Positions 22,441 through 60,841 of a DNA stretch of 64,000 nt are shown here, one piece after another; position 1 is the stretch's first letter, and each line of letters opens with the position of its first letter. Below the pieces are notes generated by a model. It worked only from the letters and a program-made list of their open reading frames with translations, had not been told where the DNA came from and did not search any database. Made by a program: the position numbers and the translations under genes. The DNA comes from Candidatus Dormiibacterota bacterium (GTDB taxonomy: Bacteria; Chloroflexota; Dormibacteria; Aeolococcales; Aeolococcaceae): assembly GCA_019245575.1 (NCBI GenBank), contig JAFARE010000004.1, forward strand, positions 1-64,000. Reading direction: 5' to 3'.

Positions 22441-23165
22441 GGCGGTACGGCCTCTACCTCGAATCCGGGCCCAAGCGGCGCACCACGATGGTGCACGTGC
22501 TCGACCTGCTGGGCTGCATCGCCAACGGACCTACGACCGATGCGGCGATGGAGGCAACGCCGGGGGCGATCAACGCATACCGTCGCTTCCTCGCTGCGCA
22601 CGGTGAGACCATCAAGGCCGACGAGCCCTTCGAGGTGCGGGTCGTCGAGCACATCACCGAAGGGGATTGGCTGGGCAACGGGTCGCCGTACCTGGTGTTT
22701 CCTCCGGATCTTCAGCCGCTGACACCGGTGGAGGCGAAGCGTTACCTGCAGCGCTTCGCGTTCCTCAGCGAGGCGCTCGCGGCATGGGCCGAGACGCAGT
22801 CCGGCCGCGCCCTCGACGCGAAGCCGCGCGCCGGCGGCCGCACCGCGCGCGCAGTGCTGCTGCACGCGCTGGGCTCGCCGGGGGCGTACCTGAGCAGCGC
22901 GCTCGGCGGCGCGCCCGGGTTCAGCCGTCTCGCCACAAGCGCCGAGCGGGGCGAGACACCGTTGCCCGAGGCGTTTCGCCAGGTGGCCGACATGGCTTCG
23001 TCGCTGGTCAGTTCCACCACGCCGCAGCAGCGCGCCGCAGTGCGGGCGCTCAGCGGCGGGGAGCGCCGCTACACGCTGCGCAAGGCGGTGCGCCGCATGC
23101 TCGAGCACCACTGGGAGCACCTGGCGGAGCTGTCCCGCAGGCCCGGAGGACCGGGGCTGGTCTGA
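22437..23165 (+). CDS. HicB-like / DinB-like two-domain protein
   Basis: A 242-residue protein. Residues 1-60 (YGLYLESGP, then LLGCIANGPTTDAAMEAT and AINAYRRFLAAHG) resemble a HicB-type antitoxin domain. The C-terminal half (LLHALGSPGAYLSSALG, then RKAVRRMLEHHWEHLAELS) resembles a DinB/YfiT four-helix bundle with its conserved His positions. The fusion is recognised only by pattern. It is coupled to proC by a GTGA overlap and lies 17 bp ahead of the ATP-grasp-like gene, so it may open the amide-ligase locus or simply belong to proC. Confidence 0.6.
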   Translation: MRRYGLYLESGPKRRTTMVHVLDLLGCIANGPTTDAAMEATPGAINAYRRFLAAHGETIKADEPFEVRVVEHITEGDWLGNGSPYLVFPPDLQPLTPVEAKRYLQRFAFLSEALAAWAETQSGRALDAKPRAGGRTARAVLLHALGSPGAYLSSALGGAPGFSRLATSAERGETPLPEAFRQVADMASSLVSSTTPQQRAAVRALSGGERRYTLRKAVRRMLEHHWEHLAELSRRPGGPGLV

Positions 23166-23182
23166 GCGATACTCAGCAGGCC

Positions 23183-24427
23183 ATGGCCGGCACGCATCTC
23201 ATCGGTCTGCTGCTTGGGGTGGAGGAGGACTGGCCGGGCGCCTTCGAGTCGCTGCTGCGCCGCCTCGACCCGGCGATCACGGTTGACGGTGAGACGCACC
23301 GGTTCGCCACGGAGCGCGTGACCATCGAGCCGTTCAACCTGCGCGCCGTGCCGCGGTACTCGCTCGTGATCGACCGCCTCGCCTGGTGGTACGACATGCC
23401 TCGCGAGTGGCTGAAGAAGGTGACGCTGATGAACCCCGTGCACCTGCTCAACAATCCGTTCACGTTCGAGGCGATGCAGAAGCACGCGGCCTACTGCGCG
23501 ATGATCCGGCTCGGGCTGAAGGTCCCCGAGACCTGGATGCTCCCCAACAAGAAGCCGCCGGCCAACCCTCGCTTCGAGGGCACCGCGCAGCGGTACCTGC
23601 GCTACTTCGACCTTGACGAGGTGGCACGCGCCGTCGGGATGCCGCTGTACATGAAGCCGTTCGACGGCGGCGCCTGGGTAGGGGTGAGCCGCGTCGAGGA
23701 CACGGCGACGCTGCACCGCGCCTACGACGAGTCGGAGGAGCGGCTGATGCACGTGCAGGCATCGGTGGACGGTTACGACGCGTTCGCGCGCAGCCTCGGA
23801 GTGGGCGCCGAGGTGATGGTGATGAACTTTCACCCAGAGCGGCCGATGCACGACCGCTACTCCGTCGACTACAACTTCCTGAGCCCCGAGGTGGGCGAGG
23901 AGGTCGTGAGCATCCTGCGCATCGTCAACGGCTTCTTCCGCTGGGAGCTCAACAGCTGCGAGACGCTGGTGCGCGGCAGCGAGGTGGTGCCCATCGACTA
24001 CGCCAACGCCACGCCGGACCTCGCAATCACGAGCCTGCACTACTACTTCCCCTGGGCAATCCGCGCCCTGGTGAAGTGGGTCATCTTCTGCTGCGTGACG
24101 GAGCGGCGCCAGACCGTCGACATGGACACCCAGCGGTACTTCGCCATCGCAGATCGCGACGACCTCAGCTATGCGGAGAAGATCAAGCGCTACCGCGCGC
24201 TCGCCGACGAGCAGCTCCAGGTGGAGCGGTACCACGAGTTCTGCGCGCGGCACCTGCCCAACATCGACGAGGTGACGCTCAGCTGGGTGGAGAGCGACGA
24301 GTTCGACCGCCTCGTGGTGGACACCGTGCGCAGCACGTTCCCGGCGCACGAGCACGAGCAGTTCATCGCGCATTTCCGCGGCCTGCTGGAGCTGTGGGCC
24401 AAGGATCAGCGCGCGCTGGTCGCGTAG
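23183..24427 (+). CDS. Divergent ATP-grasp-like ligase (RimK-like)
   Basis: A 414-residue protein unlike the three other ligases in this locus. The core shows an ATP-grasp pattern. MPLYMKPFDGGAWVGVSRV (Lys158) corresponds to the lysine plus glycine-rich loop of the ATP-binding half. WELNSCETLVRGSEVVPIDY followed by ANATPD corresponds to the acidic metal-binding strand. The N-terminal 120 residues would be a pre-ATP-grasp domain. A conserved NPVHLLNNPFTFEAMQKHA segment lies between them. It is followed at 15 bp by the GCS2 ligase, an adjacency that suggests joint action on one product. The reaction (acid plus amine plus ATP) is inferred from the fold only. Confidence 0.72.
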   Translation: MAGTHLIGLLLGVEEDWPGAFESLLRRLDPAITVDGETHRFATERVTIEPFNLRAVPRYSLVIDRLAWWYDMPREWLKKVTLMNPVHLLNNPFTFEAMQKHAAYCAMIRLGLKVPETWMLPNKKPPANPRFEGTAQRYLRYFDLDEVARAVGMPLYMKPFDGGAWVGVSRVEDTATLHRAYDESEERLMHVQASVDGYDAFARSLGVGAEVMVMNFHPERPMHDRYSVDYNFLSPEVGEEVVSILRIVNGFFRWELNSCETLVRGSEVVPIDYANATPDLAITSLHYYFPWAIRALVKWVIFCCVTERRQTVDMDTQRYFAIADRDDLSYAEKIKRYRALADEQLQVERYHEFCARHLPNIDEVTLSWVESDEFDRLVVDTVRSTFPAHEHEQFIAHFRGLLELWAKDQRALVA

Positions 24428-43380: not shown

Positions 43381-43410
43381 TTGACTCGAACACCCGTTCC
43401 TTGCTACGGT
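43381..43410 (+). promoter_or_regulatory. SOS-controlled promoter of the LysM gene
   Basis: The -35 TTGACT (43381-43386) and -10 TACGGT (43405-43410) are 18 bp apart, and the -10 ends 6 bp before the ATG at 43417. A LexA box CGAACACCCGTTCC occupies 43387-43400 within the spacer, where bound LexA would exclude RNA polymerase. Confidence 0.72.
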
Positions 43411-43416
43411 ACGCAC

Positions 43417-43755
43417 ATGGAACAAACGTTCGGTGCAGGGACGTTGGTCCGCGACGCGTCCGCTCCCCATCGCTGTCGCCGCTACACGCCGGCGCGGCGC
43501 CGGCCGCGCGCCTGGGTCGTGGCGATCGGTGTGGCCTTCACCGCGCTCGTGGGCTTGGGCGGAGCCGCGTACGGCGGCGCCACCAGCGGGCCGCAGCACG
43601 TGACGGTGCACAGCGGCGACACCTTGTGGGCCATCGCCGGGTCACATTACCCGGGCGACGACGTCCAGGCACGGGTGGCCCAGCTGGAGGTGGTGAACCA
43701 CCTCTCGGGTGCCGCGATCAGTCCCGGCCAGGTCCTGATCCTGCCGGCTCCCTGA
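43417..43755 (+). CDS. LysM-domain membrane protein, YneA-like SOS cell-division inhibitor candidate
   Basis: A 112-residue protein with an N-terminal cytosolic segment, one membrane helix (residues about 31-53, WVVAIGVAFTALVGLGGAAY) and a C-terminal LysM peptidoglycan-binding domain (TVHSGDTLWAIAGSHYPGDD, then NHLSGAAISPGQVLILP). This is the layout of Bacillus YneA and its actinobacterial counterparts (for example mycobacterial ChiZ/Rv2719c), which stop division during DNA damage and are encoded near lexA. Two LexA boxes flank the start, and lexA is 1.5 kb away. The promoter suggests a leaderless transcript. The role is inferred from context and architecture. Confidence 0.8.
   Translation: MEQTFGAGTLVRDASAPHRCRRYTPARRRPRAWVVAIGVAFTALVGLGGAAYGGATSGPQHVTVHSGDTLWAIAGSHYPGDDVQARVAQLEVVNHLSGAAISPGQVLILPAP
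43419..43432 (+). promoter_or_regulatory. Second LexA box, inside the LysM coding start
   Basis: GGAACAAACGTTCG contains a perfect GAAC-N4-GTTC palindrome, with its centre 32 bp (about three helical turns) from the upstream box. It covers codons 1-6, so bound LexA would also sit at the predicted transcription start. Confidence 0.65.
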
Positions 43756-44747: not shown

Positions 44748-45233
44748 ATGTTCCGTTGGAGCCGGCGGCCGGCGCGTTCCTACCAGTTCACCCTGCGCAC
44801 CGCCCGGCCGGCCACCGAGGTCCTCGAGGAGTTCGCTGAGCGGCGCCTTCCCGGCATCGCGGTGGCGGAGCGCGGCGAGAACTACCTCATCCTCCGGCCC
44901 CAGAAGCGCATCCGCTACGGCGGCGACATCGCCGCGCTGCTGGCCATCGTGATCGTGCTGGCGGTGCTCATCCTCACCGCCGTGACCCCGGTGTTCATCG
45001 CCCTGCTGCCCGCGGCCATCATCCCGGCGTTGCCGATGCTGCTGGACCAGCGACCGGACCTGGCGATCAGCGCGATACGGGACGACACGGGCGGCTCCCG
45101 GGTGACAGTGCACGGCCTGGCGTCGCCCGAGTTGGCGGCTGCGCTCGACGCCTATCTGGGCTCCCTCCCCCGCTACCTGCCGCCGGTGGCCGTGTCCAGC
45201 CCGGCGCCGGCCGTCAGCCGAGCAGCCGGATGA
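44748..45233 (+). CDS. Hypothetical membrane protein
   Basis: A 161-residue protein with a small N-terminal alpha/beta segment (YQFTLRTARPATEVLEEFAE, then YLILRPQKRIRYGGD). Two closely spaced membrane helices follow at about residues 60-100 (LAIVIVLAVLILTAVTPVFI and LLPAAIIPALPMLL). The C-terminal domain (SRVTVHGLASPELAAALDAY) is soluble. Not recognised. The ATG at 44748 is used; a TTG at 44703 is possible. It overlaps convergent lexA by 20 bp. Confidence 0.55.
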   Translation: MFRWSRRPARSYQFTLRTARPATEVLEEFAERRLPGIAVAERGENYLILRPQKRIRYGGDIAALLAIVIVLAVLILTAVTPVFIALLPAAIIPALPMLLDQRPDLAISAIRDDTGGSRVTVHGLASPELAAALDAYLGSLPRYLPPVAVSSPAPAVSRAAG

Positions 45234-45861
45234 CCGCCGTGACGACGCCTTCCAGGCTCACGTCGCGCGCATAGATCGGATCGAGCGAGGGGTTCTCGGG
45301 CTGGAGGCGGACCCGGTCGGACTCGCGGAAGAACCGCTTGACCGTGACCTCGCTCTCCCCTGTGTTGCCGTTCTCCACCCGGGCCACGACGATCGTGCCG
45401 TTGGGCGGGGCGTCGCGCCGGGGCCGCACGACGACGATGTCGCCGTCGTTGATGCCGGCGCCGATCATGCTGTCGCCGTGGACGGTGAGCGCGTAGGAGT
45501 CGCCACTGCCGCCGATCTCGGGGCCGACCGTGAGCGTGTTCTCGATGTTCTCCGCGGCGAGGATCGGCGTGCCCGCCGCCACGCGGCCGACCAGCGGCAG
45601 CTGGATGATGTTGCCGAGACGCTGCGGCGCCGCCCCAGCGGCTTCGCTGTCGACGATCTCGACCGTGCGGGACTTGGAGGGGTCGCGCTTGATGAACCCG
45701 CGGGTCTCCAGCGTGTTGAGGTGGTTCTGCACCGTGGACGACGAGCTCAGCCCGACTGCCTGCCCGATCTCGCGGACCGTGGGCGGGTACGCGTGCGTCT
45801 GCGAATGGTCGCGCAGGAAGTCCAGGATCTGACGCTGCCGTGCATTGAGATGGTTCGGCAT
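45214..45861 (-). CDS. lexA: LexA repressor
   Basis: A 215-residue SOS repressor. The N-terminal winged helix spans residues 1-65 (NARQRQILDFLRDHSQTHAY and LSSSSTVQNHLNTLE). The self-cleavage site Ala96-Gly97 is in VGRVAAGTP. Catalytic Ser131 is in HGDSMIG, and the Lys is in EVTVKRFF near residue 175; a short insertion lies between them. A GGAGG ribosome-binding site precedes the ATG at 45861. An SOS box overlaps its promoter, indicating autorepression. Predicted targets in the window are itself, the LysM gene and possibly recA. Confidence 0.97.
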   Translation of the reverse strand: MPNHLNARQRQILDFLRDHSQTHAYPPTVREIGQAVGLSSSSTVQNHLNTLETRGFIKRDPSKSRTVEIVDSEAAGAAPQRLGNIIQLPLVGRVAAGTPILAAENIENTLTVGPEIGGSGDSYALTVHGDSMIGAGINDGDIVVVRPRRDAPPNGTIVVARVENGNTGESEVTVKRFFRESDRVRLQPENPSLDPIYARDVSLEGVVTAVIRLLG

Positions 45862-45897: not shown

Positions 45898-45937
45898 ACT
45901 GTAACACGGGTCCGCGCAAAACGCAAACGTATGTTCT
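45898..45937 (-). promoter_or_regulatory. lexA promoter with LexA box
   Basis: On the minus strand the -35 TTGCGT (45926-45921) and -10 TACAGT (45903-45898) are 17 bp apart. The box AGAACATACGTTTG (45937-45924) overlaps the -35. It matches the Bacillus/actinobacterial CGAAC-N4-GTTCG consensus with one change in each half. Confidence 0.65.
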
Positions 45938-57964: not shown

Positions 57965-59011
57965 TCAGCCCACTGGCACGGGGGGTGCCGTGCCGTTCTC
58001 CGGCACGGCGACTGCGGGCACGGCTTCGGGCAGCGAGGCGATGCGCACCTTGGACGCCACCTCCTCGAGCAGTTCCGGGTTCTGGCGCAGGAAGTCGCGC
58101 ACGTTCTCGCGGCCCTGACCGAGGCGCATGTCGCCGTAGGAGAACCAGGCGCCGCTCTTGTCGATGACGCGCGCGTCGATGGCCATGTCGAGCACACTGC
58201 CCGCGTACGAGATGCCCTCGTTGTAGAGGATGTCGAACTCCGCGGCGCGGAACGGCGGCGCCACCTTGTTCTTGACCACCTTCACCTTGACGCGGCTGCC
58301 GATGACGTCGAGGCCCTGCTTGATCGAGTCGATCTTGCGGATGTCCATGCGCACCGATGCGTAGAACTTCAGCGCGCGGCCGCCGGTCGTGACCTCGGGG
58401 TTGCCGAACATCACGCCCACCTTCTCGCGCAGCTGGTTGATGAAGATGACCGAGGTGTGGGAGCGGCTGATCGCCGCGGTCAGCTTGCGCATGGCCTGCG
58501 ACATGAGCCGCGCCTGCAGTCCGACGTGGGTGTCGCCCATCTCGCCGTCGATCTCCGCCTTGGGCACGAGCGCCGCCACGGAGTCGATCACGATGACGTC
58601 GACGGCTCCGCTGCGCACCAGCACCTCGACGATCTCCAGCGCCTGCTCGCCCGTGTCCGGTTGCGAGATGAGGAGCTCCTCGGTGCGCACCCCGATGCGC
58701 GCCGCGTACTGGGGGTCCAGCGCGTGCTCGGCGTCGATGAAGGCGGCCACGCCGCCCTTCCGCTGCGCCTCGGCGATGACGTGCAGCGTGAGCGTTGTCT
58801 TGCCCGACGACTCCGGGCCGTACACCTCGATGATCCGGCCGCGGGGCACGCCGCCCACACCGAGCGCGATGTCGAGCGTCAGGGCGCCCGTGGGGATCAC
58901 CTCGACGCGCTGTGTCTGCGCTTCACCCAGCCGCATGATCGCCCCCTTGCCGTGCGCGCGTTCGATCTGGCCGAGGGCTGTCTGCAAGGCGCGATCGCGT
59001 TCTGTTGCCAC
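57965..59011 (-). CDS. recA: Recombinase RecA
   Basis: A 348-residue strand-exchange ATPase and coprotease for LexA. Walker A is [25 protein letters not shown] and [20 protein letters not shown] (Walker B) follow, then loop L1 [19 protein letters not shown] and [20 protein letters not shown]. The GTG at 59011, with an AGGGGTGAG ribosome-binding site, gives [10 protein letters not shown]. Longer frames upstream lack RecA homology. The 278-bp upstream gap holds a degenerate LexA box at 59204-59217. Confidence 0.97.
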
Positions 59012-59203: not shown

Positions 59204-59217
59204 CGAACATATGTACT
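59204..59217 (-). promoter_or_regulatory. Candidate degenerate LexA box upstream of recA
   Basis: The plus strand reads CGAACATATGTACT: a perfect left half (CGAAC), a fitting ATAT centre, and a right half with GTAC in place of GTTC. It lies in the recA-cinA gap, 193 bp from the recA start, which is far for an operator unless the leader is long. Confidence 0.4.
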
Positions 59218-59817: not shown

Positions 59818-60353
59818 ATGACGAACCGGCGATACCGCCACAGGTAGTCGAGCCCGCTGGCCACGGTCGCGACCACCGCCACCACGGTGAATGCGAACGC
59901 GGCCGGCTTGATCACGGGGTACGCGGGCGTGAGGATGAGCAGCGCGATCATCAGGTTCTGCGTGATGGTCTTGGACTTTCCCCATGGCGTGGACCCGACC
60001 ACCACGCCCTGTCCCGCGGCCACGAAGCGAATGCCTGTGATGACGAACTCGCGCGCGAAGATGACCACCACCACCCAGAAGGGCACCAGGTTCGCGCCCA
60101 GCAGTATCGCGAGCACGGTGATCACGAGGATCTTGTCGGCCAGCGGGTCGAGGAACTTGCCCAGCTCACTGACCAGGTTGCGGCTTCGCGCGATGCGCCC
60201 GTCGAGCGTGTCGGTCGCGGCCGCCGACGCATAGACGGCGACGGAGACCTGGTCGTGGTACATCCACGTGGCGGTGAGGGTGTACCCGATCACCGGCACC
60301 AGCAGCAGCCGCAGGACCGTGAGCTGGTTCGGCAGCGTCAGGAGATGCTTCAC
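59814..60353 (-). CDS. pgsA: CDP-diacylglycerol-glycerol-3-phosphate phosphatidyltransferase
   Basis: A 179-residue membrane enzyme that makes phosphatidylglycerol phosphate. The CDP-alcohol phosphotransferase signature D-x2-D-G-x2-A-R-x8-G-x3-D-x3-D is perfect: it runs from TDTLDGRIAR to GKFLDPLAD (residues about 42-67). About five or six membrane helices are present. Some relatives use inositol phosphate or other alcohols, so the acceptor is assigned by genomic context with cinA and recA. The ATG overlaps the yajQ stop. Confidence 0.92.
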   Translation of the reverse strand: MKHLLTLPNQLTVLRLLLVPVIGYTLTATWMYHDQVSVAVYASAAATDTLDGRIARSRNLVSELGKFLDPLADKILVITVLAILLGANLVPFWVVVVIFAREFVITGIRFVAAGQGVVVGSTPWGKSKTITQNLMIALLILTPAYPVIKPAAFAFTVVAVVATVASGLDYLWRYRRFVM

Positions 60354-60841
60354 CTGTAGTTGCTGAACTGCAGCGGCACGTCGAGGTCCATGTCCTTGAG
60401 CTGCTTGATGACCGCTTGCAGCTCGTCCTTGTCGCGCGCGGCCACGCGCAGCTGGTCACCCTGCGTGCGCACCTGCGCCTTGGGGTGCTGCCCGCGAATC
60501 CGCTTCGTCAAGTCGCGCGCGAGGTCCTCGTTGATTCCCTTGCGCAGCTTCACCACCTGACGCACATTGCCCTTCGCCGCCGGCTCGGGCTTCTGCGCGT
60601 CGAGCACCTTCAGGTCGATGCCGCGGCGGTGCACCTTGCTCTGCAGCACATCGATGATCGACTTGAGCTGCGAATCGGTCGCTGCGGTCAGGGTGATCGA
60701 CGCGGGCTCGAGCTCGATCTCCACGGGCACACCTTTGAAGTCGTAGCGCGTGGTGATCTCGCGCCGCGCCTGGTCGACGGCGTTGACCATCTCCTGATGG
60801 TCGAACTCGCTGACGACGTCGAACGAATGGTCCTGTGCCAT
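60350..60841 (-). CDS. YajQ/UPF0234 family nucleotide-binding protein
   Basis: A 163-residue YajQ. AQDHSFDVVSEFDHQEMVNA begins the protein; REITTRYDFKGVPVEIELEP and LKVLDAQKPEPAAKGNVRQ are conserved, as is KLRKGINEDLARDLTKRIRG. Members bind nucleic acids or nucleotides, and one binds c-di-GMP, notable because a GGDEF-EAL protein is encoded in the window. TATCCT at 60852-60857 (minus) sits 10 bp before the ATG. It is coupled to pgsA by an ATGA overlap. Confidence 0.93.
   Translation of the reverse strand: MAQDHSFDVVSEFDHQEMVNAVDQARREITTRYDFKGVPVEIELEPASITLTAATDSQLKSIIDVLQSKVHRRGIDLKVLDAQKPEPAAKGNVRQVVKLRKGINEDLARDLTKRIRGQHPKAQVRTQGDQLRVAARDKDELQAVIKQLKDMDLDVPLQFSNYR

Follow-up and report, generated by a model that had tools for sequence, protein, structure and literature searches.

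Does a pair of short palindromes at the start of a gene for a small LysM protein place a putative cell-division inhibitor under the control of LexA in the Dormibacteria? The locus lies in a 64-kb stretch of DNA (the window) from a soil bacterium of this class of the Chloroflexota, with a genome of 2.6 Mb that is 89.6% complete. A search of the open-access literature found no paper on LexA in Dormibacteria. The operator pair on the YneA-like gene is real and conserved, and the locus adds a well-supported case to a class of DNA-damage checkpoints that is already known.

Operator pair and promoter

A preliminary description of the window had placed one palindrome between the -35 and -10 elements of a promoter and another at the ATG that follows it. 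Both were found at those positions, 32 bp apart from start to start (Table 1). Box 1 fills the 18-bp spacer between the two promoter elements, and the ATG at 43417-43419, six bases past the -10 element, adjoins box 2 (the box-edge start). Each box has a perfect GAAC-N4-GTTC core and a single mismatch to CGAAC-N4-GTTCG. An exact pattern search of the 2.6-Mb genome gave 29 copies of the core, among which box 1 and box 2 are the only pair less than 350 bp apart. When two mismatches were allowed, CGAAC-N4-GTTCG was found 54 times in the window, compared to 44 expected, a difference that is uninformative.

Table 1. Position and supporting evidence of the features discussed (numbering of the window)
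Feature	Position	Strand	Evidence
-35 element TTGACT	43381..43386	+	TTGAC[A/T/G] kept at the same place across four families
LexA box 1 CGAACACCCGTTCC (predicted site), within promoter spacer	43387..43400	+	perfect GAAC-N4-GTTC core; kept in relatives; matrix rank 5 in window
-10 element TACGGT	43405..43410	+	TAnnnT in relatives, 17-18 bp from -35
LexA box 2 GGAACAAACGTTCG (predicted site), at box-edge start codon	43419..43432	+	kept in relatives; matrix rank 3 in window
Gene of 112-aa TM-LysM protein P0001, probable SOS division inhibitor	43417..43755	+	LysM 37.6 bits; best curated match YneA, below cut-off; alternative in-frame start TTG 43444-43446
Hydrophobic helix codons (residues 33-51)	43513..43569	+	hydropathy; AlphaFold2 helix 30-51
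LysM domain codons (residues 63-110)	43603..43746	+	PF01476 37.6 bits (cut-off 20.9)
lexA	45214..45861	-	TIGR00498 194 bits (cut-off 111); PF01726 and PF00717
LexA box of lexA AGAACATACGTTTG (predicted)	45924..45937	-	matrix rank 2; kept at lexA in relatives
recA	57965..59011	-	PF00154 467 bits; start set near 59011 by inspection, open frame reaches 59185
LexA box of recA AGTACATATGTTCG (predicted)	59204..59217	-	matrix rank 1; kept at recA in most family-f1 relatives

A scoring matrix was trained solely on boxes from the promoters of lexA and recA in other, related genomes. The top five sites that it returned in the 64 kb are, in descending order, those of recA (59204) and lexA (45924), box 2, a site at 60820 and box 1. 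When the window was simulated 300 times with a first-order Markov model, 3 of the simulated sequences had two such sites within 60 bp of each other. Box 1 is the weaker site, with a matrix score of 12.1 compared to 19-22 for the others. The product of the lexA gene scores above the TIGR00498 cut-off and contains both the DNA-binding domain and the S24 peptidase domain, and the lexA and recA promoters of the relatives carry conserved versions of the box 1/box 2 palindrome.

Further LexA-like sites were seen away from this promoter. A weaker one in the window (CGAACGAATGGTCC, 60820-60833), which ranks fourth with the matrix and thus above box 1, lies just within the 5' end of a minus-strand ORF (60350-60841). 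In the same genome (G000), a perfect core is found near the start of an imuA/imuB-like pair, of two DUF222-HNH genes and of the genes for YebC and a RadA-like protein. Genes of the ImuA/ImuB and DUF222-HNH kinds are well known from SOS responses. The imuA/imuB-like pair, on the minus strand, is a probable SOS mutagenesis operon; its box (CGAACGCATGTTCG; contig 38, 11740; L192 2241-2252) precedes the first gene, for an ImuA-like protein with a RecA fold, by ~77 bp, and the ImuB-like gene comes second. The two DUF222-HNH endonuclease genes (L173 1316 and L193 1267, on contigs 4 and 39) each have a perfect box within ~50 bases of the predicted start, and CGAACATCCGTTCG is located ~20 bases upstream of the RadA-like gene (L182 1278, contig 28).

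Conservation and linkage to lexA

Homologues of the LysM protein were found in 52 of 61 relatives. Their upstream regions, which were scanned with orientation by strand and include one that is ended by a contig edge, contain at least one box in 51 of the 52 cases and at least two in 46 (at most one mismatch), compared to 9 and 1, respectively, of 250 control pieces from the same loci. These counts are not independent, because the genomes are related; chance retention of the boxes is unlikely, given their occurrence in more than 20 genera from four families. This conservation is the strongest evidence for the operator pair.

The layout kept in the four families comprises TTGAC[A/T/G], box 1 in a spacer of 17-18 bp, a TAnnnT -10 element and a start codon associated with box 2; TAnnnT is also present at the common -10 position in G028 and G006. 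The spacing of the boxes had initially been read as three helical turns. Most members of the window's family have 32-34 bp from box to box, and elsewhere the distance is 28-29, 24-25 or 22 bp, so phasing is not conserved, and helical phasing was rejected as a conserved constraint that would account for the presence of two boxes. The conserved feature is the place of each box in the promoter, not the spacing between them. Families f3 and f4 have three or four boxes at the promoter. In their lexA/LysM intergenic regions (e.g. L025, L026 and L019) these 3-4 boxes lie between the divergent genes, and the lexA side carries a conserved AAACACTTGTTC or AAACCTTTGTTC.

The LysM gene of the window is located 1.5 kb from lexA, with a CtaG-like gene and a small gene in between. 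In most genomes in which both genes were found, the LysM gene is near lexA on the same contig, and in families f3 and f4 and in some members of f2 the two are divergent and within a few hundred bases of each other. This genomic proximity to lexA is the linkage looked for in SOS-controlled TM-LysM inhibitors, and the genes for SOS division inhibitors of Gram-positives are often neighbours of lexA (PMC6851548). A metagenome-assembled genome (MAG) of the Actinobacteria (L120) also has lexA and a TM-LysM gene in divergent orientation, with boxes in the region that separates them, and the TM-LysM product is 33% identical to P0001 over 88 residues. In the two genomes of genus g14, which belongs to the same family (G013 and G018; 91% and 84% complete), neither a clear LexA nor a LysM protein was found, which suggests a joint loss of repressor and target. 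An alignment search of the wider phylum gave just weak, LysM-level matches outside the class, mostly within longer reading frames, and we therefore claim no orthologue there.

The LysM protein and its likely function

The membrane helix plus LysM layout proposed for the product is borne out by hydropathy, the PF01476 match and the AlphaFold2 model: P0001 has one N-terminal transmembrane (TM) helix (~30-51), followed by one LysM domain, and the promoter of its gene carries the predicted LexA boxes. The net charge of the first 32 residues is +6, from which we infer the topology. In the model, the helix (residues 30-51) leads to a strand-helix-helix-strand LysM unit whose block pLDDT is 84-89 (residues 61-110); the model as a whole is of modest confidence (mean 68.5, pTM 0.45). 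YneA (NF010723) is the best curated family for P0001, and no other curated family matches all 13 aligned members. The match (38.9 bits, E 6.4e-10, residues 54-111) does not reach the cut-off of 60 and lies largely within the LysM half, a part that P0001 has in common with many cell-wall proteins. In the LysM GDT motif, D68 and T69 of P0001 correspond to D46 and T47 of YneA, the LysM residues needed for peptidoglycan binding (PMC13396833), and I81 of YneA has no certain match. T69 is kept in at least 90% of the alignment rows, and D is replaced by Q in some f2 members.

Both the regulator and the function could be read otherwise. Short palindromes are bound by many regulators, and the assignment of these boxes to LexA is a prediction; nevertheless, it is most improbable that they are the sites of another repressor, given that the same motif is kept before lexA and recA of the same genomes, that a matrix trained on lexA and recA recovers both boxes, and that the palindromes match the actinobacterial LexA motif tCGAAC-N4-GNNCGa, described in Streptomyces venezuelae (PMC9380542). 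The LexA control proposed in the preliminary description, through the two boxes, therefore gains strong support from their conservation, from the occurrence of like boxes before lexA and recA and from the linkage to lexA, and on these sequence features LexA almost certainly controls the P0001 gene.

The product of a LexA-controlled gene might instead act on the cell wall during the SOS response, perhaps by scaffolding or regulating wall hydrolases, and impose no division block. LysM is a general peptidoglycan-binding domain, the match to the YneA model is below cut-off and mostly over LysM, and ChiZ is reported to act as a wall hydrolase (PMC6851548), all of which would be compatible with such a role. 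We nonetheless consider it unlikely: a domain search found no catalytic domain in the 112 residues of P0001, YneA is the one curated family common to all 13 members, and lexA linkage is typical of division inhibitors (PMC6851548). P0001 is most likely an inhibitor of the YneA/ChiZ type, and by analogy with the known proteins we judge it probable that it inhibits division.

Start codon and possible upstream ORF

A leaderless transcript had also been predicted for this gene. In most of the window's family, 4-7 nt separate the -10 element from a start codon at the box edge, a position that would suit a leaderless transcript, and leaderless SOS genes have a precedent, as the start of M. tuberculosis LexA itself is leaderless, at the transcription start (PMC2897130). 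The box-edge codon is the only usable start seen in G015 (GTG) and G001 (ATG), and G020 has a GTG at the box edge whose frame is open. Genus g7 keeps a start codon at this place, with varying identity (ATG, GTG or TTG), and in families f2, f3 and f4 an ATG lies within box 2 (GAACNNATGTTC or GAACNNATGTAC).

In several close relatives a stop lies between the box-edge ATG and the LysM frame, and the ATG there therefore opens just a short ORF ahead of the inhibitor gene. This frame ends after 9-10 codons in G009, G003 and the g6 genomes, with a stop that overlaps the next start (ATGA or GTGA); in G010 it stops after 19 codons. A one-base difference leaves the ATG frame of the window open, so that ATG 43417 and TTG 43444 are both possible starts. 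If the TTG were the true start, the protein would have 103 residues and the mRNA a leader of ~27 nt or an upstream ORF. This would agree with G009, G003 and the g6 genomes, where the box-edge frame is closed and an ATG or GTG at the position of the window's TTG begins the LysM frame, and with the N-terminal pattern MI.D of the relatives, which aligns with LVRD in the window. Against it stand the frame that is open from ATG 43417, the lack of another usable start in G015 and G001, and the retention of a box-edge start codon in genus g7 though its identity changes. The TTG start is a serious contender, if not quite the one we would choose. A leaderless transcript from the box-edge ATG, six nt past the -10 element, remains plausible for the window, but the ATG is not the sole candidate start.

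The operator of the Dormibacteria inhibitor might even double as a translation-initiation sequence, with the start in or at the edge of box 2 and a (nearly) leaderless mRNA. In several genera it would then encode a tiny ORF, ATGA- or GTGA-coupled to the inhibitor, as a translational brake atop LexA repression. We offer this as speculation that is considerably more likely to fail than to hold.

Proposed mechanism

The boxes, the promoter layout and its conservation, the boxes of lexA and recA and the layout of the protein can be read from the sequences. We infer from them LexA binding, induction by DNA damage, membrane topology, division arrest and the target of P0001, in the following scheme. 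In the undamaged cell, LexA bound to box 1 in the promoter spacer and to box 2 at the transcription start and start codon would exclude RNA polymerase. Upon DNA damage, RecA would become active, LexA would cleave itself and P0001 would be made. The protein would span the membrane once through its helix, with the basic N-terminal end on the cytoplasmic side and LysM on the outer side. In B. subtilis, YneA has one TM helix and an external LysM domain; the TM helix binds FtsW, and peptidoglycan binding by LysM is required (PMC13396833). By analogy, the helix of P0001 would engage the septal synthase FtsW and its LysM domain nascent peptidoglycan, and septation would be delayed until repair is complete. 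The source genome was found to encode one FtsW/RodA-type protein, on contig 27 at 22924-23976, as a possible target, and on this analogy we lean slightly towards FtsW as the partner of P0001.

Comparison with known systems

Like YneA of Bacillus subtilis and Listeria (NF010723), P0001 is small, has an N-terminal TM helix and a LysM domain that would be external, contains the LysM GDT motif and is predicted to be under LexA control; the gene is divergent from lexA, as with YneA, in part of the Dormibacteria. P0001 differs in scoring below the curated cut-off, in its longer basic N-terminus and in the two genes between it and lexA in the window, and the Dormibacteria start codon is touched by, or lies within, a LexA box. 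ChiZ (Rv2719c) of Mycobacterium tuberculosis, likened here by its description, also combines TM and LysM, lies next to lexA and is SOS-linked (PMC6851548), and the divergent arrangement is present in the Actinobacteria MAG. Wall hydrolase activity is reported for ChiZ, whereas no catalytic domain is seen in P0001. SosA (Staphylococcus) and DivS (Corynebacterium) are likewise single-TM, SOS-controlled division inhibitors encoded next to lexA, but they have no LysM domain (PMC6851548). The LexA boxes of Streptomyces venezuelae share the palindrome and its 4-bp spacer (PMC9380542); in contrast, Dormibacteria have two to four boxes at one promoter, and Streptomyces is reported to be without clear homologues of the known division inhibitors.

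The Dormibacteria, which are little studied and mainly metagenomic, thus gain a predicted LexA motif, several candidate regulon members and a putative division checkpoint, and a lexA-linked TM-LysM inhibitor is placed in the Chloroflexota besides the Bacillota and Actinobacteria. The promoter layout kept in four families provides a handle on how a short piece of DNA can accommodate a start codon along with two LexA sites; of most note are the operator-embedded start codon and the possibility of a coupled leader ORF.
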